From: a virus
Direction: 5' to 3' (one strand)
Virus record (IMG/VR): IMGVR_UViG_3300006917_000146
Location: 1 to 24,711 of that record
DNA length: 24,711 nucleotides
Positions 5,323 through 21,780 of the stretch are shown one piece after another (position 1 is the stretch's first letter; every line of letters starts with the position of its first letter). A model generated the notes under the pieces. It had not been told where the DNA came from and made no database searches. It saw nothing but the letters and a program-made list of their open reading frames with translations. The position numbers were made by a program, and so were the translations under genes.

Positions 5323-6081
5323 ATGGCCGTCCAACGGTTCGTCCTCAACACAAGCACCCTCAACGACGCAACCACAGGACTAGCAGGCGGCGCAACGCCC
5401 GCCTTCAAACTCGACACAAGCACCCTCGACAGCACAGCCAAACTTGATGGCGTCGACTACCTCACCCTCGCCACAGCAACCGCACAGCTCGGAACAAGCC
5501 AAGCCACAGCAACCAGCCAAACAACGAAACAAGCAACCGCAACAGCCAACCTCGGAACAAGCCAGGCCACAGCAACCAGCACCACCATCAACCCAGTCTC
5601 CGCAACAGCCAACCTCGGAACAACCCAGGCCACAGCACAAACCACTATCACAAAACAAGCCACAGCAAACACACAGCTCGGCACAATTCAAGCAACAGCA
5701 ACTACCACAACAAACACCAACGCAACAGCAACCGCACCACTTGGATCAGGCCAAGCCACAGCAACCAGCCAAACACGCATCGTCCCAAACGGCACAGCAA
5801 ACCTCGGAACCACAAACGCCACAGCAACAGCAACCGTCACCCCACAACCAACCCCAGAACCAACCACAACACAAGGCGGCAACCCTTGGTGGCGCAAACA
5901 AATACCAACAACCAAACAACCACCAAAACAAGAACAACAACCAGAACCAACAGTCGAACAATTCAAACCACGCGAAACATTCGCACGAGCATCAACCAAC
6001 GCAAAACTTCAAGCAACAGCAACAGCAACAGTCGCATGGTCTATCCTTGAAGATGAAGCAGACCTCCTGCTTTTGATTTGA
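5323..6081 (+). CDS. Repeat protein with six exact 21-residue Ala/Thr-rich units, probable virion fibre or decoration
   Basis: A 252-residue protein with three parts. Residues 1-47 hold two copies of a motif (FVLNTSTLND and FKLDTSTLDSTAKLDG). Residues about 50-175 are six tandem units of 21 residues with core ATAxLGTxQATAT. Residues about 176-225 are a Pro/Gln linker with GGNPWWRKQ, followed by a partial seventh unit (AKLQATATATVAWS) and an acidic-hydrophobic end (EDEADLLLLI). The alternating small and beta-branched residues suggest stacked beta strands, such as a solenoid or fibre. There is no Shine-Dalgarno; the gene starts 7 nt after the previous stop, so it is probably coupled. I do not recognise a named family. 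A structural role is inferred from position and composition. Confidence 0.7.
   Translation: MAVQRFVLNTSTLNDATTGLAGGATPAFKLDTSTLDSTAKLDGVDYLTLATATAQLGTSQATATSQTTKQATATANLGTSQATATSTTINPVSATANLGTTQATAQTTITKQATANTQLGTIQATATTTTNTNATATAPLGSGQATATSQTRIVPNGTANLGTTNATATATVTPQPTPEPTTTQGGNPWWRKQIPTTKQPPKQEQQPEPTVEQFKPRETFARASTNAKLQATATATVAWSILEDEADLLLLI
5470..5847 (+). repeat. Six tandem 63-bp repeats within the repeat protein gene
   Basis: The unit containing CTCGGAACAA (or a close variant) recurs with its GGAACAA-type core at 5491, 5554, 5617, 5680, 5743 and 5806, exactly 63 bp apart each time with no indels. Units differ by scattered substitutions, fewest between units 2 and 3, so they arose by tandem duplication and then diverged while keeping the reading frame. 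Confidence 0.85.
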
Positions 6082-6088
6082 GGACACG

Positions 6089-6352
6089 ATGGCAATTCAA
6101 ACAGGACAACTCAGCGTCGGAACAGCAGCAACCCGCATCTTAGGAACACGCGGAAACTACGGACACGTGATCCTCCAAAACTTAGACAGCACAGACGCCG
6201 TCTACATTGGCGGAGCAAACGTCACAACAAGCACAGGATTAGCACTTTCCAAACTCGACCATCATGACTTCGACTTGATGCCGGCGACAGAACTCTACGC
6301 CATATCAACAAAAACAGGTCACACCCTTTCATACTTTCTTCAAGAGCTCTAA
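6089..6352 (+). CDS. Small beta-rich virion protein of unknown function
   Basis: An 87-residue protein starting after a GAGG Shine-Dalgarno at 6080-6083. It opens with GQLSVGTAATRILGTRG and continues with VILQNLDSTDAVYIGGANVT, then TGLALSKLDHHDFDLMPATE, and ends in LYAISTKTGHTLSYFLQEL. This pattern, of a short beta barrel or sandwich with an 'xxNLDSTDAVYIGG' core, occurs in many phage structural operons, often as a small head or tail accessory protein. No signal peptide or membrane segment is present. Its stop overlaps the start of the prohead protease gene by one base. The structural role is inferred from position; the exact function is unknown. Confidence 0.65.
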   Translation: MAIQTGQLSVGTAATRILGTRGNYGHVILQNLDSTDAVYIGGANVTTSTGLALSKLDHHDFDLMPATELYAISTKTGHTLSYFLQEL

Positions 6353-8004
6353 TGCCGTACTACATCACAGACAAAGCAGAAGGCTGCACAGGCTGGGCAA
6401 CGATTAAAGAAGACGGCGAAGTCATCGGCTGCCACACAACAAAACAAGATGCGATCGATCAGATGGTCGCTGTTTCAGTAGCAGAAGAAATGGAACCAGG
6501 CGGAGAACGCGCAATCGAACTCAACCTTCCCGCATACATTCGAAGCGCAGCAGCCAAAGGACTCGAACACTATCGAGAAGGACTTGGAGGCGACGGACTT
6601 GTTGAACGAACAATTCGAGAAGCACGCGCAATGGCTGCAGGAAACATCAGCGAAGACAAAGTCATACGAGCAAACGCGTGGGGCCAACGACACCTCGTCG
6701 ATTTAGAAGCACCTAAGAACTCCAATCCAGACAACGACGAATACCCAGGCGCCGGCGCCGTTGCTTTCTTCCTTTGGGGAATAAACCCATTAGACCCCAA
6801 ACCAGCAATGGACTGGTTCAGTAACAAAGCAGAAGCCATCAAAGCAGACGAAAACAAACGCAGCAGCGACGCAGAAGACGTCATCATTGTTGACATCGAT
6901 GGAACACTAATCGCAGGCGGAAAAGGCATTCAAAAAAACATCGACTACGTCAACGCCTTATACGAAGCCAACTACATCTACATCGTCACAGGCAGAAGCG
7001 AAACAGAAGAAGCAACAACCATCCAAGAACTAGATGCCGCTGGCGTCAAATATGACGACATCGAATTCAACGACGACATGAGCGTCTCGACACCTGAATA
7101 CAAAAAAGAGAAGGCCGCAGACATTCAAGAAGAAGCAACCGTCATCCTCGCCATCGATAACGATGCAGCAGCTCGAAGCGCGTACAGCTCTCTGGGAATA
7201 AAAACCCTAGACCCTAAAGACATCAAACCAACACCACCAACGCGATCGTTCACATTCTGGCGCAAACAAAGTGAACCCTTTGCTACGCTTGAACCTATGG
7301 CTGAACAAGTCGAAACACGACGCGTAACATTCAACGACTTCGAACTCCGCGCAGCACCACAAGGCGACGGTATGACATTTAGTGGCTACGCCGCAGTGTT
7401 CAACAGCGACAGCGAACCGCTCCCATTCATCGAACGAATCGCACCTGGCGCATTTGCGAAAAGCCTCAAAGCACGCAACAACATCCGCATGTACATGAAC
7501 CACGACTCAAGCATGCTCCTCGCAACCACACGAGCAAAAACACTTAGACTTCAGGAAGACAGCAAAGGCCTGCACGTGGACGCAGACCTACCAGACACCA
7601 CAATCGGTCGCGACCTTTCAGTTCTCATGCAACGCAAAGACGTCGACTCGATGAGCTTCGGCTTCACCGTCCCACAAGGCGGAGACAGATGGAGCGACGA
7701 CGGAATGCGACGCGAACTAACACAGATCAAGCTCTTCGAAGTTTCAGTGGTGACAGGCTTCCCAGCATACGCAGCAACAAGCGCAAGCGTCCGATCACTT
7801 GACGCACTCGCAACACGCACAGGAATCGACGCAGATCAACTAGCAGCAGCAATCAACACACTCGAAGCAGGGCAAACATTGAGCCCAGACCACGCTGCAG
7901 TCATTCGCGAAACAGTGGCCAAGTTGGAGCCACAACAAGAAGCAGCATCATCGCGCATCGGCCTAATGGCTAAGCACCTTGACCTGCTAAAAGATTTCGC
8001 TTAG
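6352..8004 (+). CDS. Prohead maturation protease fused to an inserted HAD phosphatase domain
   Basis: A 550-residue protein, more than twice the length of a usual HK97-type prohead protease. Residues 1-50 (GWATIKEDGEVIGCHTTKQD) and about 58-165 (LPAYIRSAAAKGLEHYREGL, then GDGLVERTIREARAMAAG) are modules seen at the front of other phage capsid proteases. Residues about 175-290 form a HAD-type domain: DIDGT (D181, D183), VTGR (212-215), YKKEK near 250-254 and AIDND (D269, D271), so its catalytic motifs look intact. Residues about 313-495 are the U35-type serine protease, with FSGYAAVF, H384 in MYMNHD, S435 in DSMSFGF and FEVSVVTGFPAYA. The protease trims capsid subunits and scaffold. An in-frame ATG at 7297 could give the protease alone (235 residues), but no Shine-Dalgarno precedes it. 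The C-terminal 50 residues are helical. Confidence 0.88.
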   Translation: MPYYITDKAEGCTGWATIKEDGEVIGCHTTKQDAIDQMVAVSVAEEMEPGGERAIELNLPAYIRSAAAKGLEHYREGLGGDGLVERTIREARAMAAGNISEDKVIRANAWGQRHLVDLEAPKNSNPDNDEYPGAGAVAFFLWGINPLDPKPAMDWFSNKAEAIKADENKRSSDAEDVIIVDIDGTLIAGGKGIQKNIDYVNALYEANYIYIVTGRSETEEATTIQELDAAGVKYDDIEFNDDMSVSTPEYKKEKAADIQEEATVILAIDNDAAARSAYSSLGIKTLDPKDIKPTPPTRSFTFWRKQSEPFATLEPMAEQVETRRVTFNDFELRAAPQGDGMTFSGYAAVFNSDSEPLPFIERIAPGAFAKSLKARNNIRMYMNHDSSMLLATTRAKTLRLQEDSKGLHVDADLPDTTIGRDLSVLMQRKDVDSMSFGFTVPQGGDRWSDDGMRRELTQIKLFEVSVVTGFPAYAATSASVRSLDALATRTGIDADQLAAAINTLEAGQTLSPDHAAVIRETVAKLEPQQEAASSRIGLMAKHLDLLKDFA

Positions 8005-8138: not shown

Positions 8139-9317
8139 ATGAAGGAATACATCGACCGTCAAGTCGAAATTCGTAACCGCGCATGGAACGAAGCAAAGTC
8201 GATCCTTGACAAAGCAGCAGCAGAAAAGCGTGACCTTTCAGCCGAGGAGGAGCAGACCTACAGTCGCATCTCCAAGGAACTCGAAGACCGCGCAGCAACC
8301 ATCGCAAAGCTCCGTGAAGACGAAGCTCGCGAATTGCGCCTCGATGCAGCAACCCGCGAAATCGCAGACCAGGCTCGCCCAATGGCAGCAGCACCAGTCG
8401 CAGACGACATCGCACACATTCGCTCACTCGTAATGAACGAAAAGCGCTCACACAACTTCGAGCGTCGCGACATTCTGAAGTCAAGCACCGGCTCCCCAGT
8501 GCCGACTTCGTTCTACGACCAAGTGATTATGAAGGCACGCCTCATCGCGCCAGTGCTTCAGACATCAACCGTCCTGAACACCGCAGGCGGAGAGAACCTC
8601 CAAATCCCATCGTTGTCGACTTATTCAGTAGGCACCGTGACGGGCGAAGGTTCAGCCATTGGCGAGAGCGACCCAGTATTCAACTCGTTCATCACATTGA
8701 ACGCGTACAAATACAGCTTCCTCGTGCAGCTCTCAACAGAACTGCTCGAAGACGCAGGCGTTGACATTCTCGGCTTCATGGCAGACCAAGTCGGTAACGC
8801 ACTTGGCTACGCCGTAGGTTCAGCATTGACCGTTGGAACTGGCACCGACCAGCCAAAGGGCATCGTCACTGCATCAGCAGTAGGCGGAACCGCAGGCACC
8901 GCGACAGCATTCACCGCAGACAACCTCATCGACTTGCTCTACAGCTTGGATGGCGCAGCACGCAACCTCCCAGGCGTGGGCTGGATGATGAACGGCAAGT
9001 CAGTAGGCGCAGTTCGAAAGTTGAAGGACACCGCCGGGAATTATGTATTCCAGCCAAGTCTTTCGATGGAGAGCCCAGACATGCTGCTTGGCAAACCAAT
9101 CTACGAGAACCCATCAATGGTTGACGTTGCGACAACGACCAAGTCGGTCATCGTTGGTCACTTGCCTTCGTACTACGTACGCACCGTAGGCGGCCTCCGT
9201 TTGGATCGAAGCGACGACTACGCATTCAACGCAGGACTCGTGACCTTCCGGGCCACATTCCGGGTCGACGGCAACTTGCCACAAACCAGCCACATCAAGC
9301 ACCTGCTCCAGCCATAA
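8139..9317 (+). CDS. Major capsid protein (HK97 fold)
   Basis: A 392-residue phage_capsid family protein. Residues 1-80 are strongly charged and helical (EYIDRQVEIRNRAWNEAKS onward), matching the delta or scaffold domain that directs shell assembly and is removed by the protease. After a linker at about 80-115, the shell domain begins near SSTGSPVPTSFYDQ. It continues with QIPSLSTYSVGTVTGEGSAI, LVQLSTELLEDAGVDILGFM and GTGTDQPKGIV, all typical of this family. The end GLVTFRATFRVDGNLPQTSH is the usual final strand region. The exact cleavage site cannot be read. A Shine-Dalgarno-like AAAAGG lies at 8122-8127. Codon use differs from its neighbours: lysine is mostly AAG here and mostly AAA elsewhere, consistent with selection for high expression. 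Confidence 0.95.
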   Translation: MKEYIDRQVEIRNRAWNEAKSILDKAAAEKRDLSAEEEQTYSRISKELEDRAATIAKLREDEARELRLDAATREIADQARPMAAAPVADDIAHIRSLVMNEKRSHNFERRDILKSSTGSPVPTSFYDQVIMKARLIAPVLQTSTVLNTAGGENLQIPSLSTYSVGTVTGEGSAIGESDPVFNSFITLNAYKYSFLVQLSTELLEDAGVDILGFMADQVGNALGYAVGSALTVGTGTDQPKGIVTASAVGGTAGTATAFTADNLIDLLYSLDGAARNLPGVGWMMNGKSVGAVRKLKDTAGNYVFQPSLSMESPDMLLGKPIYENPSMVDVATTTKSVIVGHLPSYYVRTVGGLRLDRSDDYAFNAGLVTFRATFRVDGNLPQTSHIKHLLQP

Positions 9318-9427: not shown

Positions 9428-10738
9428 GTGGGCAATGCGCGTAATCATCCAGAACATAATGGTCGAGTTACCAGACCTCGAAGCGCAGCTCCTGCTGCAC
9501 CGAGGCATAGCGCACTTACCGGAACAAGCGGACGAACCAACAGAGACACGTTACGAATCCTCTGGTACTCAAACGCGCCCTTCGCGCCAACAGGCTACGG
9601 CACGCAAACCGCGCAAGCAGTCCCCAGGCTCATCAAAGAAGGCCACGAAGTAGCCATCCACGCGATGTACGGCATCGAAGGCGTAGCTTCGATGTGGAAC
9701 GGCATCAAGCTCTATCCACGAGGAATGGCACCATACAGCGACGACATTCTCACAGCACACTGGATGGATTGGTCAAACGGCAACAAAAACATCCCAGCAA
9801 TGCTCATGACACTTTTCGATGTTTGGGTATTGAAATCACCTTCTCTAAACCAGATAACAAACATCGCATCGTGGGTACCAATTGACCACGCACCATGCCC
9901 ACAAGAAGTCGTCGCCTGGTGCAAACGCGACAACGTCAAACCAATCGCAATGTCACAATTCGGACTACGAATGCTTGAAACAGAAGGCGTCGAGGCCTTC
10001 TACGCGCCACACGGAATCGACGCAACATTCAAACCAACACCAAAGTGGAGCAACGGGCAACGCGAATACACAGGACGCGAACTCATGCAAATACCAGAAG
10101 ACAAATTTGTGGTGATGATGAACGCAGCAAACAAAGGACAAAACCCATCGCGTAAATCATTCGGAGAAAACCTGCTGGCCTTTTCGATTTTCGCGCAAAA
10201 CAAACCAGACGCAATCATCTACCTGCACACAGAACGCGACGGAGCAATGGGAGGAATCAACCTCACACCATTACTAGAAGCCTGCGGAATTCAACCACAC
10301 CAATACAAAATTGTGGACCAATACTCCTATCGCGCCGGCTTCCCACAAGGCGCACTCGCAGCGATGTATACAGCAGCAGACGTCCTACTTGCCTGCAGCA
10401 TGGGCGAAGGCTTCGGCATTCCAGTGATCGAAGCACAAGCCTGCGGAACACAAGTCATCGTCTCAAACTTCACCGCACAACCAGAACTTATCGGAGCAGG
10501 CTGGGCAGTCGACGTACAACCATTCTGGGACGCACACCAAAAGTCATGGTTCTGCACACCACAAGTCCCATCCATCGTTGACGCATTAAACGAGGCATAC
10601 AAAACAACACGAGGAACAAACCAAACAGCCGTCGATTTTGCGAAAGACTACGAAGCAGACCAAGTCTGGGAAACACACTGGCAACCAATTATGAAAGAGC
10701 TCATCGCATGGTGCCATGCATCATTATCCCAGTCTTGA
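9428..10738 (+). CDS. GT-B glycosyltransferase (GT4-like)
   Basis: A 436-residue ORF. From about residue 41 it is a clear GT-B glycosyltransferase: TLRILWYSNAPFAPTGYGTQ begins the N-terminal Rossmann domain, and the C-terminal domain carries AMYTAADVLLACSMGEGFGI with the EX7E pair E327/E335 followed by QACGTQVIVSN, which binds the nucleotide-sugar donor. It has no signal peptide or membrane segment, so it acts in the cytoplasm. The first 40 residues look non-conserved and overlap a better-looking ORF in another frame at 9435. The only available start in frame is GTG 9428, with AAGGAG at 9416-9421. It begins a three-gene sugar-related cassette inserted between capsid and connector. The acceptor, probably a virion protein or host surface glycan, is inferred. 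Confidence 0.85.
   Translation: MGNARNHPEHNGRVTRPRSAAPAAPRHSALTGTSGRTNRDTLRILWYSNAPFAPTGYGTQTAQAVPRLIKEGHEVAIHAMYGIEGVASMWNGIKLYPRGMAPYSDDILTAHWMDWSNGNKNIPAMLMTLFDVWVLKSPSLNQITNIASWVPIDHAPCPQEVVAWCKRDNVKPIAMSQFGLRMLETEGVEAFYAPHGIDATFKPTPKWSNGQREYTGRELMQIPEDKFVVMMNAANKGQNPSRKSFGENLLAFSIFAQNKPDAIIYLHTERDGAMGGINLTPLLEACGIQPHQYKIVDQYSYRAGFPQGALAAMYTAADVLLACSMGEGFGIPVIEAQACGTQVIVSNFTAQPELIGAGWAVDVQPFWDAHQKSWFCTPQVPSIVDALNEAYKTTRGTNQTAVDFAKDYEADQVWETHWQPIMKELIAWCHASLSQS
9435..9653 (+). CDS. Small ORF overlapping the glycosyltransferase start; possibly a separate or frame-broken gene
   Basis: A 72-residue ORF (ATG 9435) in a different frame from the glycosyltransferase. Residues 1-38 (MRVIIQNIMVELPDLEAQLL, then LHRGIAHLPEQADEPT) look like a real small phage protein of the kind found directly after capsid genes, where a strand-turn-helix is followed by an acidic tail. 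Residues 40-72 are Arg/Lys/Pro/Gln-rich and look like an out-of-frame shadow of the glycosyltransferase. The better-looking coding therefore switches from this frame to the glycosyltransferase frame at about 9545-9555. AAGGAG at 9416-9421 is 13 nt from this ATG, longer than usual. Either both overlap genuinely, or a frame change joins them. Confidence 0.4.
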   Translation: MRVIIQNIMVELPDLEAQLLLHRGIAHLPEQADEPTETRYESSGTQTRPSRQQATARKPRKQSPGSSKKATK

Positions 10739-11376
10739 ACCGCTACGACCTCCTCGAACGCGCCATCAAATCAATCGACTACCCAGTCGAAGAACTTCTC
10801 ATCATTGACAACGGAGGACAAAGCACACTCAACGATTACCCCTGGATAATCGATAGACGACACGTGAAAAATTATCGCGTTTGGAGCATGCCAACAAACC
10901 TCGGCGTAGCACCATCATGGAACCTCGGCATCAAAGCAACACCACACGCACGCGGCTGGATACTCATGAACTCAGACGCAGCATTCGAACCAGGCCAACT
11001 CGAACACTTCCACAACGACACAACAGAAGAAGCTATCATCTTCACAAGCGCAACGCCAGGCTGGTCATGCGTATGGATAGGAGCCAACGTCGTAAAGAAG
11101 ATAGGCCTGTTCTCAGAATGCTACGTGCCCGCTTACTTCGAAGACAACGACTACGAACAACGAGCCAGGAACAACGGCATACCAATACTCATATCAGACG
11201 CAGCCGTAAAACACGACAACTCATCCACAATAAACTCATCTCCAGAACTAAGCGAAAAAAACGCTCGCAGCTTCCAAGCAAACCAAAACCTACACATCGA
11301 GAGATGGCAAAACGGAACACCACCAATAGGACAATGGGACCTAACACGACGAAGGGAACTCGGCTGGGATGCTTAA
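10708..11376 (+). CDS. GT-A glycosyltransferase (GT2-like)
   Basis: A 222-residue protein. It opens with the GT2 strand IIIPVLNRYDLLERAI (about 5-20), followed by ELLIIDNGG. The metal- and sugar-nucleotide region is GWILMNSDAAF, where NSD (88-90) stands in the DXD position. FEDNDYEQRARNNGI near 143-157 matches the acidic segment seen in rhamnosyl- and related GT2 enzymes. It is short for the family but has the whole GT-A core, with no membrane segment. It overlaps the GT-B gene by 31 nt and the next gene by 8 nt, so the three are co-translated. Donor and acceptor are unknown; a role in adding a second sugar to the same glycan is inferred. Confidence 0.87.
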   Translation: MVPCIIIPVLNRYDLLERAIKSIDYPVEELLIIDNGGQSTLNDYPWIIDRRHVKNYRVWSMPTNLGVAPSWNLGIKATPHARGWILMNSDAAFEPGQLEHFHNDTTEEAIIFTSATPGWSCVWIGANVVKKIGLFSECYVPAYFEDNDYEQRARNNGIPILISDAAVKHDNSSTINSSPELSEKNARSFQANQNLHIERWQNGTPPIGQWDLTRRRELGWDA

Positions 11377-12019
11377 ACTCGAAGACTTCAAAAACAAACA
11401 CAAAGACGAAACGATCCACGTCTTCGGTTCAGGCGCAACACTGAACTACCTAGACCCCGCCTACTTCAACAACACAACAAACATAACGACCAACTTCGCC
11501 GGGTCCATCTTCGGACTCAAAAACTATTACTGCTTCAGCCACTACCACGAAGACAGCAGAAAAGAAAACAACAAACCAGAATGCGCTGCAGTTTTCACCC
11601 CAGACAAAGAACACGGAACAGACGGCTACTTCATCGACATCCAAGAAAACATCGTGCTATTCGAAGCAACACAAGGAAGACCAGGCGCCTCATTTGATCC
11701 ACAAGGAAAAGACTGGCCAACCAAAGAAAACAGCCTCGTAGTCGGATCATCAGGAATACACGGAGCCATGCACCTAGCCGCATACATGGGCGCAAAATTC
11801 ATCGTCCTCGTAGCAGCAGACTGCGGAACACTTGGAGGCAACCATCGCATCAACGGCTACCCAACAGGCGACACCCACTGGCAGCTCTACGAAATTCACC
11901 TAAGAAGAATGAAACAACGGCTCCACCAAACCTACGGATGCCAAACCTACTCACTCAACCCATTCATCAACTACAGCCTCGAAGGGACACCATACAGAGG
12001 CCACGCAACCATCAACTAG
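11369..12019 (+). CDS. MptE/DUF115-like Rossmann protein, probable glycan-related enzyme
   Basis: A 216-residue protein. ETIHVFGSGATLNYLDP (about 14-30) is a nucleotide-binding-type GSG loop, and about 124-153 has VGSSGIHGAMHLAAYMGAKF followed by IVLVAADCGT. This two-part pattern resembles the MptE-like/DUF115 fold, a group that includes flagellin-modifying Maf-type glycosyltransferases and sialyltransferase-like proteins. The late segment GNHRINGYPTGDTHWQLY could contribute to substrate binding. It overlaps the GT2 gene by 8 nt and closes the cassette. I am confident of the general fold class, less so of catalysis; a sugar-transfer role rests mainly on context. Confidence 0.6.
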   Translation: MLKLEDFKNKHKDETIHVFGSGATLNYLDPAYFNNTTNITTNFAGSIFGLKNYYCFSHYHEDSRKENNKPECAAVFTPDKEHGTDGYFIDIQENIVLFEATQGRPGASFDPQGKDWPTKENSLVVGSSGIHGAMHLAAYMGAKFIVLVAADCGTLGGNHRINGYPTGDTHWQLYEIHLRRMKQRLHQTYGCQTYSLNPFINYSLEGTPYRGHATIN

Positions 12020-12030: not shown

Positions 12031-12654
12031 ATGAGCGGACCAAACTACGCAACGCGCAACCAGATCAAAGCAGCACTACGCATAGGAACCGCTGACACCA
12101 TCGACGACGACCTAATCGACAACTGCGCAGGAGCAGCATCACGCCTCATCGACGGATACTGCAGCCGCAAATTCTGGACAAGCGGAACAGCAGAAACACG
12201 CCTCTACACAGCAAGCAACGCCTACGTGTGTCAAATAGACGACATCGCAGGAACAGCAATCACCCTGCAAAGTTCAACAAACGCAGACGGAACATTCGAC
12301 GTCACGTGGCAACCAAACGACTACCAGCTCGAACCACTCAACGGAACACTCGACGGACTTACCTGGTCATACGACCGCATTCGAGCAACAGGCGACTACG
12401 TGTTTCCAAACATCGACACCACCTACGGAGAACAAGCGCTAGTAAAACTAACCGCAGTCTTCGGCTGGCCAAGCATCCCAGAACCAATAACACAAGCAAC
12501 CATCATCCAAGCATCACGCATCTTCAAACGATACGACTCACCACTTGGCGTCGCCGGCTTCGGAGACTTAGGAGCAATTCGAGTAAGCCGCGCACTTGAC
12601 CCAGACGTCGCACAGCTCGTAGAACCATACAGAAGAATGCGACAATTCGCGTGA
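12031..12654 (+). CDS. Head-tail connector protein (gp6-like adaptor)
   Basis: A 207-residue protein. NYATRNQIKAALRIGTADTI, then DDDLIDNCAGAASRLIDGYC (about 5-45), is the helical start of the gp6/connector family, which forms the adaptor ring under the portal. A beta-rich insertion follows, then the helical end ITQATIIQASRIFKRYDSPL and VEPYRRMRQFA. I chose ATG 12031; the open frame extends upstream to 11938, but those 31 codons overlap the previous gene and look like a shadow. The stop TGA overlaps the GTG start of the next gene. It resumes the standard head-tail order after the glycosylation cassette. Confidence 0.8.
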   Translation: MSGPNYATRNQIKAALRIGTADTIDDDLIDNCAGAASRLIDGYCSRKFWTSGTAETRLYTASNAYVCQIDDIAGTAITLQSSTNADGTFDVTWQPNDYQLEPLNGTLDGLTWSYDRIRATGDYVFPNIDTTYGEQALVKLTAVFGWPSIPEPITQATIIQASRIFKRYDSPLGVAGFGDLGAIRVSRALDPDVAQLVEPYRRMRQFA

Positions 12655-13138: not shown

Positions 13139-13564
13139 ATGGCAAAGCAAGTCCTCACAAACGTCGCTGTCACATTCGGCACCGCAGCAACTGACATTAC
13201 AAGCTACGTCGCATCATGCACGTTGAACTTGACCGCAGCAGAAGTGACCACCACCTCATTCGGTTCGAGCGGCGCAGTAACCCGCGTGCAAGGACTCAAA
13301 GACCACAGCGTCACACTTGAACTTCATCAGGATTATCCAACAATTGAAAAATTGTTCTACGATGCATTCGCAAACGGCACCTCAGTACCAATGACGATCA
13401 AGCCGAACGGAACAGCCGCTGCTTCTTCCAGCAATCCACAGTACGCATTCAACGTGCTGCCTGTTTCCTGGACGCCTGTGGCCGGCGCCGTTGGTGACCT
13501 CGCAACAGCATCGATCACCTATCCAATCGACGGCGCAGTAACCAAGACAGGCACCGGCGCCTAA
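13139..13564 (+). CDS. Major tail protein (tail tube subunit)
   Basis: A 141-residue beta-rich protein. VAVTFGTAATDITSYVASCT, then AEVTTTSFGSSGAVTRVQGL, then KDHSVTLELHQDY and IEKLFYDAFANGTSVPMTIK match the compact tail tube family of actinobacterial phages. The end is GAVGDLATASITYPIDGAVT. It polymerises into the hollow tail tube. AGGAG precedes the ATG with 8-nt spacing, a strong start, and the gene has its own candidate promoter. Its position directly before the tail assembly chaperone is canonical. Confidence 0.9.
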   Translation: MAKQVLTNVAVTFGTAATDITSYVASCTLNLTAAEVTTTSFGSSGAVTRVQGLKDHSVTLELHQDYPTIEKLFYDAFANGTSVPMTIKPNGTAAASSSNPQYAFNVLPVSWTPVAGAVGDLATASITYPIDGAVTKTGTGA

Positions 13565-14590: not shown

Positions 14591-15292
14591 ATGGCCGTTT
14601 ATTTCGCATCCATCAAAGCAACCCAGCCCAAGCCACTCGCTGGCACGTGGACAGAGCTCAAAGCCATCCTTCAACACCACGACGAAAACCCAAACAAAAC
14701 AGATGGCGCACTTTGGTCGCCGGTCGAATACTACCCAGGAACCAAACGAGGCAACAAAGGCGTCCGCTTCATCGAAGCCCTCGTCGTAGACATGGACGGC
14801 GAAGCATTCGACAACGCCAGACTCGACGGCTTGGAGTGGTTCGCATATTCAACTTATTCGCACAGCAACGAAGAACCGCACTACCACCTCGTCCTCCCAC
14901 TAGCGGAACGAGTACCAGCAGGATTATGGCGTGTCGTTTGGGTAGGGCTTCACGAACGACTGCACCTCCAAGGCGATCCACAAACCAAAGACCCAGCTCG
15001 TCTCTTCTACCTTCCACAACACGCGCCAGATCAACCGTACGAATTCCATGAAGGACACGGCGCACTTCTCGACGCAGACTTCAACTGGCAAACAGAACAC
15101 AACATACAACCAGGGCAAACTAGAACAGCGCGACAACCACGACAACGCAAACCACAAAACATCATGCTCTCAGAAGAATGGTGGAACAGCACAACAACAA
15201 ACCCCTGGAGAGAACTCGAAGGCAAAGCAAAATACAAAGCGATGCTCAACGATTTCACAGCGCTCATGAACCGCGTCGGAGGACCAGAGTAG
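14591..15292 (+). CDS. Primase-like (AEP-type) or replication-initiator-like protein inside the tail module
   Basis: A 233-residue protein that does not look structural. EALVVDMDGEAFD carries D67 and D69, PHYHLVLPLAERVP carries H97 and H99, and DPQTKDPARLFYLPQHAP follows at about 129-146. This D-x-D, then H-x-H, then 'DPARLFYLP' order is the pattern of archaeo-eukaryotic primase-like domains found in phage and plasmid replication proteins. The C-terminal 80 residues are basic then helical (QTRTARQPRQRKPQN; WWNSTTTNPWRELEGKAKYK), with no helicase domain. It starts after a strong AGGAGG Shine-Dalgarno with its own candidate promoter. Position between tail chaperone and tape measure is unexpected for a replication gene. 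The fold is inferred from motifs; enzymatic activity is uncertain. Confidence 0.5.
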   Translation: MAVYFASIKATQPKPLAGTWTELKAILQHHDENPNKTDGALWSPVEYYPGTKRGNKGVRFIEALVVDMDGEAFDNARLDGLEWFAYSTYSHSNEEPHYHLVLPLAERVPAGLWRVVWVGLHERLHLQGDPQTKDPARLFYLPQHAPDQPYEFHEGHGALLDADFNWQTEHNIQPGQTRTARQPRQRKPQNIMLSEEWWNSTTTNPWRELEGKAKYKAMLNDFTALMNRVGGPE

Positions 15293-20147: not shown

Positions 20148-20506
20148 TGGCTTACTACGCAGAACTCGACAACAACAATAAAGTCATTTCAGTAATGGCA
20201 ATACACAACAACGAACTCCTTGAAGACGGATCAGAAAACGACGCTAAAGGTTTGGAATTCTGTAATTCAATTAAACAAGCGAAATGGATACGAACCTCCT
20301 TCAGCGGTCGCATTCGAAAACAATACGCAGCCATTGGATACACATACGACGAAACAACTGACGTTTTCATCGCACCACAGCCATACCCATCCTGGCAACT
20401 AAACAGCAACTACGATTGGCAAGCACCAATCGAATACCCTGCAGATGGAAAACGATACGCATGGGACGAAGACACGCAGGCCTGGGTAGAAATAGCCGCT
20501 GGCTAA
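20147..20506 (+). CDS. Small tail-fibre-associated protein of aquatic phages
   Basis: A 119-residue protein. It starts YYAELDNNNKVISVMAI and has IRKQYAAIGYTYDETTDVFI, then APQPYPSWQLNSNYDWQAPI and GKRYAWDEDTQAWVEI. This 'KxYAxIGYTYD...F.APQPYPSW.L' pattern is very common next to fibre genes in marine and freshwater phages. Its exact function is not established; assembly chaperone or fibre-tip roles have been suggested by position only. It is coupled to the glycine-rich fibre gene (one-base overlap), and its 3' end contains the start of the secreted protein gene at 20461 in another frame. Confidence 0.7.
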   Translation: MAYYAELDNNNKVISVMAIHNNELLEDGSENDAKGLEFCNSIKQAKWIRTSFSGRIRKQYAAIGYTYDETTDVFIAPQPYPSWQLNSNYDWQAPIEYPADGKRYAWDEDTQAWVEIAAG

Positions 20507-21780
20507 TCATCATCCCCGCGAGCCTCCTCGCGCTTTTCATTCCAAGCAAAACCAAAGCAGACACACTCGGCGCCTGGACCTTCAGCAAAACCTGCATCGC
20601 AGCAGAAGGCGGCAACACAACACCAACCGCAGACGGCTTCATCATCACCGGGCCAGACGGAGGAACCTGCGCAGGCAAAGCAAACTACGCGCAGCTCCAA
20701 ACAACCATCCCAGAAGGAACCACCCTCATCACCTTCACGTGGACCTACCAAACCAACGACGGCGCCTGGTACGACCCACCCCAATACGGCATCAACGGAA
20801 CCATCACCACCCTCCTCAACCAAGGCAACCAAGGAACAGGAACCGTCAACGCGATAGTTCAAACAGGCGACACATTCACCATCCGCCAAGCCTCAACAGA
20901 CACCTGCTGCCAACCAGGAATTCTCACCATAAGCAACCTGAACTACGGCACCCAAGAAACCACAACCACCACCACAACCGAGCCAAGCACCACACTCCCA
21001 GAAACAACCCTGCCGGAGACAACCCTCCCAGCTCAAACAACCACTACCGACGCCCCAACCACCACCGTCGAAACAACCACCACAACCACAACAACGACGA
21101 CAACAACAACTACCTCGACGACCAGTACGACCGTCTACGTGCAACCCGCCACCACCGCCGCACCGCCCACAACAGAACCACCAACGACAACCACCACAAC
21201 GGATCAGACAACAACCACAACCACCACAACTCCAACGACCACCACAAGCACAACACAACCAACCACAACAACGACAACAAACCCACCACAAACGACATCA
21301 CCCCAGACTACCCAACCCACCCCAACCACCCAACCTGAACCAACCAACCCAGGCGAAGCAACAGACGCCGAGATAGCACAAACCGTCATCGCATTAGAAG
21401 CAGCAACCCCAGACCAAATAGAAGCCATCATTGATGACGTGCTCGAAAAGGAACTCCAAACAGACCAGGCGGCAGCGATTATCGCGAGCCCACAAGTTCT
21501 CGCAACCATTAACCCAGAGCAGGCCACACAGCTCTTCGAGCAGATCAACACAAACGAACTAACAGCAGACGAAGCAGAAGCCGTAGTCGCAGCCGTTCAA
21601 GACGCACCACTAGACATCAAGCAAGCATTCGAAGCAGCGCTCAACATTTTCTCAGGTTTTGCCGACAACTACATCGCCTCAAACTCAACGATCCCAGTCT
21701 CGCAGAGAAGGGCGATGGTCGCATTGAGTGCAGTATTATTGACGGCAAGCCCTGCACTAACCACACGGAGAACACGATGA
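20461..21780 (+). CDS. Secreted, threonine-rich, probably membrane-anchored protein
   Basis: A 439-residue protein from ATG 20461 (an upstream ATG at 20416 would add 15 residues). The N-terminus is a signal peptide: basic MGRRHAGLGRNSR, hydrophobic WLIIIPASLLALFIP, then SKTKA with cleavage likely before DTLGAW. A beta-rich, four-cysteine extracellular domain follows to about residue 170. A Thr/Pro-rich linker of roughly 130 residues comes next, then an acidic helical domain with repeated units (TPDQIEAIIDDVLEKELQTD; NPEQATQLFEQINTNELTAD). The C-terminus has a hydrophobic stretch (AMVALSAVLLTASPAL) and a basic tail TTRRTR, which looks like a C-terminal membrane anchor. The layout resembles cell-surface proteins of Actinobacteria. 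Function is unknown: host-surface modification, superinfection exclusion or a lysis role are possible. Confidence 0.75.
   Translation: MGRRHAGLGRNSRWLIIIPASLLALFIPSKTKADTLGAWTFSKTCIAAEGGNTTPTADGFIITGPDGGTCAGKANYAQLQTTIPEGTTLITFTWTYQTNDGAWYDPPQYGINGTITTLLNQGNQGTGTVNAIVQTGDTFTIRQASTDTCCQPGILTISNLNYGTQETTTTTTTEPSTTLPETTLPETTLPAQTTTTDAPTTTVETTTTTTTTTTTTTTSTTSTTVYVQPATTAAPPTTEPPTTTTTTDQTTTTTTTTPTTTTSTTQPTTTTTTNPPQTTSPQTTQPTPTTQPEPTNPGEATDAEIAQTVIALEAATPDQIEAIIDDVLEKELQTDQAAAIIASPQVLATINPEQATQLFEQINTNELTADEAEAVVAAVQDAPLDIKQAFEAALNIFSGFADNYIASNSTIPVSQRRAMVALSAVLLTASPALTTRRTR
20959..21353 (+). repeat. ACA/ACC-rich low-complexity tract encoding the threonine linker
   Basis: About 400 bp dominated by ACA, ACC and ACG codons, encoding runs of up to 14 threonines with interspersed Pro, Glu, Gln and Ser. 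The codons for Thr vary, so the tract is selected at protein level rather than being a simple DNA repeat. Slippage here could change linker length between relatives. Confidence 0.8.

Follow-up and report, generated by a model that had tools for sequence, protein, structure and literature searches.

A candidate glycosylation cassette between the capsid and connector genes of a freshwater, probably actinobacterial, phage

Introduction

Glycosylation of virions has been demonstrated in few phages, namely mycobacteriophages, which modify their capsid and tail tube with enzymes of their own (PMC12363180) at the C-termini of both proteins (PMC12619734). Gp110 of Che8 and gp38 of Corndog are called essential for capsid glycosylation (PMC12363180). 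In Corndog, an O-methyltransferase and three glycosyltransferases (GTs) are encoded between portal and protease and have been suggested to modify the capsid (PMC4351075), and the map of phage Krili displays a Corndog-type O-methyltransferase with three GTs within the head module. Glycosylation has also been suggested for Rhodococcus phages that carry a GT together with a methyltransferase (PMC13313380), and Maravista is a further phage for comparison (PMC11256854). For the GTs of freshwater actinophages, DNA protection or superinfection exclusion has been proposed, and not particle modification (PMC10202952). The present work concerns the virus record IMGVR_UViG_3300006917_000146, analyzed over its whole length of 24,711 bases (hereafter, the window), in which three overlapping genes at 9428-12019 separate the genes of the major capsid protein and the head-tail connector. 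As judged from their sequences, these genes probably form a glycosylation cassette within the structural operon, whose products would act on virion proteins in the cytoplasm while the particles assemble.

The gene sets of Che8 (gp108-110) and Corndog (gp35-38) resemble that of the window in comprising three to four small GTs encoded by overlapping genes; a sugar-type methyltransferase stands with or beside them, and in Corndog-type phages the genes lie inside the head module, as in the window. However, the insertion site differs, no MptE-fold member was seen in the two mycobacteriophage sets, and the families of Che8 are others (gp108, a GT2 with Methyltransf_24/TylF; gp109, GT2-like; gp110, GT25). 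Homology to the Che8 enzymes was considered and rejected, as BLASTP of the three pairs gave best E values of 2.2, 0.064 and 19. The best reading is that the cassette works, by analogy, like the Che8 and Corndog systems, with non-homologous enzymes. Homologues of the first two enzymes are found in phiPsal1 (MG835450), a phage sequence from a Pontimonas salivibrio culture whose capsid, GT1 and GT2 are 44, 40 and 44% identical to those of the window and which encodes GT1 and GT2 between capsid and neck gene, as in the window. Unlike the window, phiPsal1 encodes a methyltransferase on the reverse strand where the third enzyme would be expected, and its tail protein lacks the C-terminal Thr. No published description of the cassette, or of its third enzyme in phage particles, was found in a literature search that was poor in subscription papers.

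Composition of the cassette

The cassette genes and the two virion genes that flank them are the following (E values in brackets):

8139-9317, plus strand: major capsid protein (HK97-type), major head protein (phrog_10, 5.3e-67)
9428-10738, plus strand: GT1, GT-B (GT4-like) glycosyltransferase, 436 amino acids (Glycos_transf_1, 2.7e-11; phrog_2170, 1.4e-31)
10708-11376, plus strand: GT2, GT-A family 2 glycosyltransferase, 222 amino acids (Glycos_transf_2, 1.5e-7; phrog_29879 'galactosyl transferase', 1.3e-45)
11369-12019, plus strand: third enzyme, predicted single-domain MptE/Maf/sialyltransferase-fold protein, 216 amino acids (predicted structure; weak MptE-like match)
12031-12654, plus strand: head-tail connector/adaptor (phrog_442, 5.5e-13)

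A first-pass annotation, made from the sequence by itself, had described the three open reading frames (ORFs), their overlaps of 31 nt (GT1/GT2) and 8 nt (GT2/third gene) and the motifs of the first two proteins, and recomputation returned all of these. Its GT-B and GT2 identities are likewise borne out by Pfam scores above the gathering cut-offs (43.8 bits for GT1 against Glycos_transf_1, PF00534, with a cut-off of 26.4; 32.0 bits for GT2 against Glycos_transf_2, PF00535, with a cut-off of 23.3). The EX7E motif of GT1 consists of E327 and E335, both invariant in 58/58 aligned homologues, and GT2 carries N-S-D at residues 88-90, of which N88 and D90 are invariant in 81/81 homologues. GT1 starts with a GTG codon preceded by an AAGGAG-type ribosome site. 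The most probable start of the connector is 12031, which lies 11 nt downstream of the third gene and is preferred, as in the relatives, over an in-frame ATG upstream at 11938 in the ORF list. In the cassette region, scans for promoters and terminators did not usefully outperform shuffles.

No membrane segments were detected in GT1, GT2 or the third protein (highest 19-residue Kyte-Doolittle means of 1.42, 1.06 and 1.51, respectively), in agreement with the first-pass annotation. This bears on the idea that the enzymes alter the wall glycan or other targets of the host during infection, e.g., against superinfection or the re-adsorption of progeny. Such a role has been proposed for the actinophage enzymes (PMC10202952), and P. 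salivibrio has many wall glycan genes, often of horizontal origin (PMC6106888). Nevertheless, with membrane segments in 0/3 proteins and the cassette embedded between two virion genes, capsid and connector, a host target is unlikely.

Position, variants and optional presence

Loci on viral contigs were picked with GT2 (the best 80 of at least 593 relatives) and with the third protein (the best 80 of 175), and removal of loci sharing the same stretch reduced 144 to 104; 91 non-redundant loci hold the third gene. In 87 of these 91 it lies between GT2 and the connector, the remaining four being contig ends, while the gene upstream of GT1 is the capsid gene in 69/91 and a contig end in 22/91. The third gene, which had been regarded as unusual in such sets, is thus a regular member in this lineage. 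A further 80 loci (of 101) were kept with the phiPsal1 capsid as bait. Fourteen of them stop right after the capsid gene at a contig end, which leaves 66 informative loci; cassette genes are present in 58, and in eight the capsid gene is joined directly to the connector gene, so the view that the cassette interrupts the usual capsid-to-connector order stands. No GT2-family match was found in the records of these loci with a capsid-connector junction (0/8).

In the redundant set of 176 loci in which both capsid and connector are visible, the slot between them holds GT1-GT2-third in 62, is empty or unrecognised in 40 and holds GT1-GT2 in 39; rarer contents are GT1 alone (8), GT1-alt229 (7) and GT1-third-GT2 (4). 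Sixteen of the 80 GT2-picked loci have no match to the third gene and carry other ORFs downstream of GT2. Nine such proteins were scanned, of which four had no match, and the replacements include GT17 (6.7e-19), GT2-like, Methyltransf_11 and Methyltransf_24 proteins; others belong to the phrog_9549 glycosyltransferase group. The third slot is exchangeable, and the cassette is a widespread but optional unit.

DNA modification is a familiar activity of phage GTs. The enzymes might instead glycosylate the bases of the phage DNA and thereby block host nucleases, a DNA role that has been proposed for the GTs of cultivated freshwater actinophages, or Planktophila phages (PMC10202952). However, the genes lie in the head module and not with replication genes, the third slot is exchanged with methyltransferases and other GTs, and the annotation of the complete phiPsal1 genome, where GT1 and GT2 homologues occupy the corresponding position, contains no base-hypermodification gene. 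A role in DNA modification is therefore given little credence here.

Other ORFs, named by eye as HNH-like or GIY-YIG-like, are found downstream of the third gene in L016, L017, L018 and L041, and between GT1 and GT2 in L034, L035 and L050.

The third protein

Little was retrieved with the third protein as a single query: an identical copy stands on one viral contig, whereas phage records gave nothing and PDB sequences nothing meaningful. An alignment was needed. The protein scores 15.9 bits (E 0.011) against the Pfam MptE-like family (PF01973), below the cut-off of 34.6, and matches phrog_4603, 'alpha-2,3-sialyltransferase', weakly (E 0.0033). With the family alignment, 22/22 members match MptE-like at E values up to 0.1 (best 8.6e-6) and 22/22 match phrog_4603 (best 2.9e-4). 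On sequence grounds, the protein falls outside the curated MptE-like family.

Its structure, predicted from a 29-row alignment that includes distant members, has a predicted local distance difference test score (pLDDT) of 83.8 and a predicted template modeling score (pTM) of 0.87, and the top Foldseek ranks are HPPK (MptE) of M. jannaschii (E 6e-4) and a Pasteurella sialyltransferase (E 7e-4). Structural comparison (VIA alignment) gives Z scores of 12.3 for MptE 8sd5 (159 residues, 3.1 Å), 11.9 for Maf 5mu5 (173 residues, 3.6 Å), 11.0 for Cst-I 2p2v (182 residues, 3.8 Å) and 10.5 for Cst-II 1ro8 (172 residues, 3.9 Å), followed by SteA (9.5), mammalian sialyltransferases (7.5-8.8), thiamine pyrophosphokinases (7.9-8.6) and other folds (up to 4.6). 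The top-ranking counterpart among predicted viral proteins comes from an uncultured phage and is 52% identical, and several of the next are named MptE-like or DUF115. According to the predicted structure, the third protein belongs to the MptE/Maf/Cst fold group. The earlier description of it as MptE/DUF115-like thus stood at the level of fold, since structure prediction did not place it outside that group, and failed at the level of the Pfam score.

In the Maf flagellin GTs (Maf_flag10/PF01973) the fold shared with the third protein is that of the central, Cst-II-like domain (PMC11339370). The third protein differs from them in being one 216-residue domain, carried by a phage with no flagellin and scoring below the Pfam cut-off, whereas the 5mu5 chain has 632 residues; the three-domain, flagellin-acting architecture of Maf is not found in it. 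With the sialyltransferases Cst-I and Cst-II (GT42) it has the fold in common, together with the weak match to the phage sialyltransferase family, but identity is about 13% and the likeness is one of predicted fold only. As the top structural match is MptE of M. jannaschii (Foldseek rank 1), the protein might be no sugar enzyme and act instead as a pterin diphosphokinase, like MptE, or as a partner without catalysis. Maf is, however, tied with MptE and the Cst sialyltransferases are close, all 22 members match phrog_4603, and in other loci the same slot is occupied by GTs and methyltransferases, all of which makes the kinase or partner role rather improbable. Because two GTs stand beside it, and because of the nature of the slot replacements, the third protein is favored as a transferase.

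The major tail protein and the cassette

Downstream of the connector the window encodes a protein that became the leading candidate acceptor:

13139-13564, plus strand: major tail (tube) protein, candidate acceptor, C-terminus ..VTKTGTGA (phrog_4574, 1.1e-16)

During the comparison of loci, the end of this protein was seen to differ between cassette-plus and cassette-minus phages, and the hypothesis that a Thr in its last four residues accompanies the cassette was fixed in writing before further loci were fetched. A readable tail protein is present in 307 loci, of which 64 were dropped (cassette state unknown in 55, a gap without recognised gene in six, two short, and methyltransferase only in one); the cassette state is known for the other 243, with 172 unique sequences. 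Among the unique sequences, Thr occurs in the last four residues in 126/143 cassette-plus versus 12/29 cassette-minus proteins, and among loci fetched after the hypothesis only, in 50/53 versus 12/22. After clustering within each state the counts are 42/44 versus 5/12, and 18/20 versus 4/10. Nine phylogenetically independent plus/minus pairs, which include discovery loci and were drawn from a tail-protein tree built without the last 12 residues, comprise six as predicted, none opposed and three ties (sign test, 0.031), and the connector tree repeats the result (6-0-3, p=0.03). The top Thr column of the tail protein is the penultimate residue; the best column of g14 reaches a net 4 or 5, according to the set of pairs used. 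With Ser or Thr accepted, the trait gives 4-0-5 and is not significant (p=0.125).

In the window's own family, 116/116 tail proteins (65 unique) end in KTG[TS] plus two residues; this set was picked by a KTG near the end, so the informative part is the Ser or Thr that follows. The window protein is predicted to have a tail-tube fold (monocin tube, top row, Z 12.6; lambda gpV, Z 11.4), and residue 141 of the model aligns with residue 157 of gpV, after which lambda has a C-terminal domain that lies outside the tube. The end of the window protein would thus be exposed. Taken together, the variation of the tail-protein C-terminus with the cassette is suggestive, a good lead and not proof.

It was also considered whether cassette-minus phages that keep the tail Thr have GTs elsewhere, and this found no support, with GT2-family matches in 0/33 and GT4-family matches in 0/34 records of cassette-minus or gap loci, all classed linear and many short.

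These data also concern the possibility that the cassette is mere cargo, a 'moron' that settled at a permissive site, with no link to the particle. Presence and absence at one site, together with the insertion of endonuclease-like ORFs, indicate that the site accepts cargo. The strong conservation of the catalytic residues, the stable linkage to the capsid gene and the tail-protein C-terminus that varies alongside argue against this, and a mere passenger is very unlikely.

Other candidate acceptors and neighboring genes

The capsid C-termini show no visible change between cassette-plus and cassette-minus phages, with only four of the nine pairs usable. Another possible O-glycan acceptor is the product of a 454-codon ORF (20416-21780, plus strand), which has a hydrophobic stretch near its N-terminus and a long region that is rich in Thr and mucin-like; Pfam and PHROG gave no match for it. 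A Thr/Ala/Gln-rich repeat protein, without PHROG match, is encoded between portal and protease (5323-6081, plus strand).

The genes for terminase, portal, head protease, capsid, connector, tail and peptidase all run in one direction in the window, terminase and portal having been identified by eye and by homology to phiPsal1, and a scan of the whole record found no tRNA genes. The head protease (Peptidase_S78; 6352-8004, plus strand) is preceded within one fused ORF by a HAD-phosphatase/polynucleotide-kinase-like domain (PF03767, 1.2e-6; phrog_415, 1e-13). A primase/helicase-like fragment (14591-15292, plus strand; phrog_9765, 3.4e-15) lies within the tail module directly upstream of the tape measure gene.

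Host and sugar donor

A gene-sharing scan of genome contigs returned two matches, to contigs of a Microbacteriaceae (G001) and a planctomycete metagenome-assembled genome (MAG). The Microbacteriaceae contig belongs to a phage of the same type, in which the genes run GT1-third-GT2, and its bin holds four capsid and two third-protein copies (G001, L151, L237); in L237 the third-protein gene stands beside a phosphoesterase-like ORF. As the contig is itself a phage and the bin holds four capsid copies, an actinobacterial host is supported and not proven. The planctomycete contig looks chimeric and was rejected as a host clue; in it, a third-protein homologue (52%; L150:8001-8642) adjoins a RecA-like ORF and no GTs. 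The host, as the relatives point to, is probably actinobacterial. PhiPsal1 itself is described as a sequence of 31 kb that had an abundance of about 2% in the P. salivibrio culture and was absent from a second preparation, and P. salivibrio is reported to add fucose, sialic acid and 3-deoxy-D-manno-octulosonic acid (KDO; PMC6106888). Of 199 genomes from the family to which the Microbacteriaceae MAG belongs, 74 contain the NeuB family. The sialic acid and KDO of P. salivibrio and the NeuB genes make an acidic sugar activated by cytidine monophosphate (CMP) plausible in the hosts.

Proposed role

Sugar-coating of the particle is the most likely role of the cassette, because the cassette is kept, swapped or lost while the end of the tail-tube protein tends to change alongside. 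The first-pass annotation had suggested virion glycosylation from the position directly after the capsid gene; the role remains the best supported one, and the emphasis on the capsid does not, since the capsid is neither the only nor the best candidate acceptor and it is the tail-protein C-terminus that changes with the cassette. In the proposed mechanism, GT1 and GT2 would place the first sugars onto hydroxyl side chains of a structural protein, and the third enzyme would add a further, probably CMP-activated, acidic sugar of the nonulosonic acid or Kdo type; alternatively, it might perform a Maf-like first transfer to Ser/Thr. Since the last slot is filled by other GTs or methyltransferases in relatives, the outer end of the glycan would be its varying part. 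As acceptor, the C-terminal end of the major tail protein (in this family, KTG[TS] and two more residues) would be the likeliest single candidate, ahead of the capsid and of a Thr-rich phage protein. The benefit may be masking of the particle or tuning of adsorption.

Several points weigh against this proposal. Particle glycosylation in the window phage is a prediction from genes, and tblastn of the three window proteins gave no mycobacteriophage matches at the limits used, so the precedent is one by analogy. MptE is a pterin kinase, and the fold of the third protein is therefore compatible with more than one reaction. As to the tail protein, the best connector column reaches 5-0. When the orientation of the pairs was flipped in all 512 ways, p was 0.016 for Thr columns in the tail protein, 0.047 for those in three proteins and 0.156 for any residue and column in the three proteins. 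Twelve unique cassette-minus proteins have the Thr, nine of them in one related group ending ATS/ATT; 17 cassette-plus proteins lack it in the last four residues, ten of which end ..TKTGSGA with Ser instead, and the cassette-plus phiPsal1, whose tail protein ends ..TRLEA, is a true exception. Moreover, co-transfer of neighboring genes by recombination (hitchhiking) could contribute to the association.

A more specific form of the proposal is doubtful as a whole. In it, every tail-tube subunit would have its C-terminal Thr/Ser capped by a short glycan whose outer sugar, a nonulosonic acid, would come from a free-standing enzyme with the Maf/sialyltransferase fold, the exchangeable last enzyme would give each lineage its own surface sugar, and loss of the cassette would go with loss of the acceptor residue, often to Glu/Asp.

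Conclusion

In all, a conserved yet swappable set of enzymes is present in the structural gene block of a phage group from many aquatic metagenomes. Because this group includes natural cassette-free relatives, both the acceptor and the benefit can be tested by comparing phages. The cassette also offers compact cytoplasmic glycosylation enzymes and, if the proposed role is true, the Maf/sialyltransferase fold would have been put to work on phage particles.

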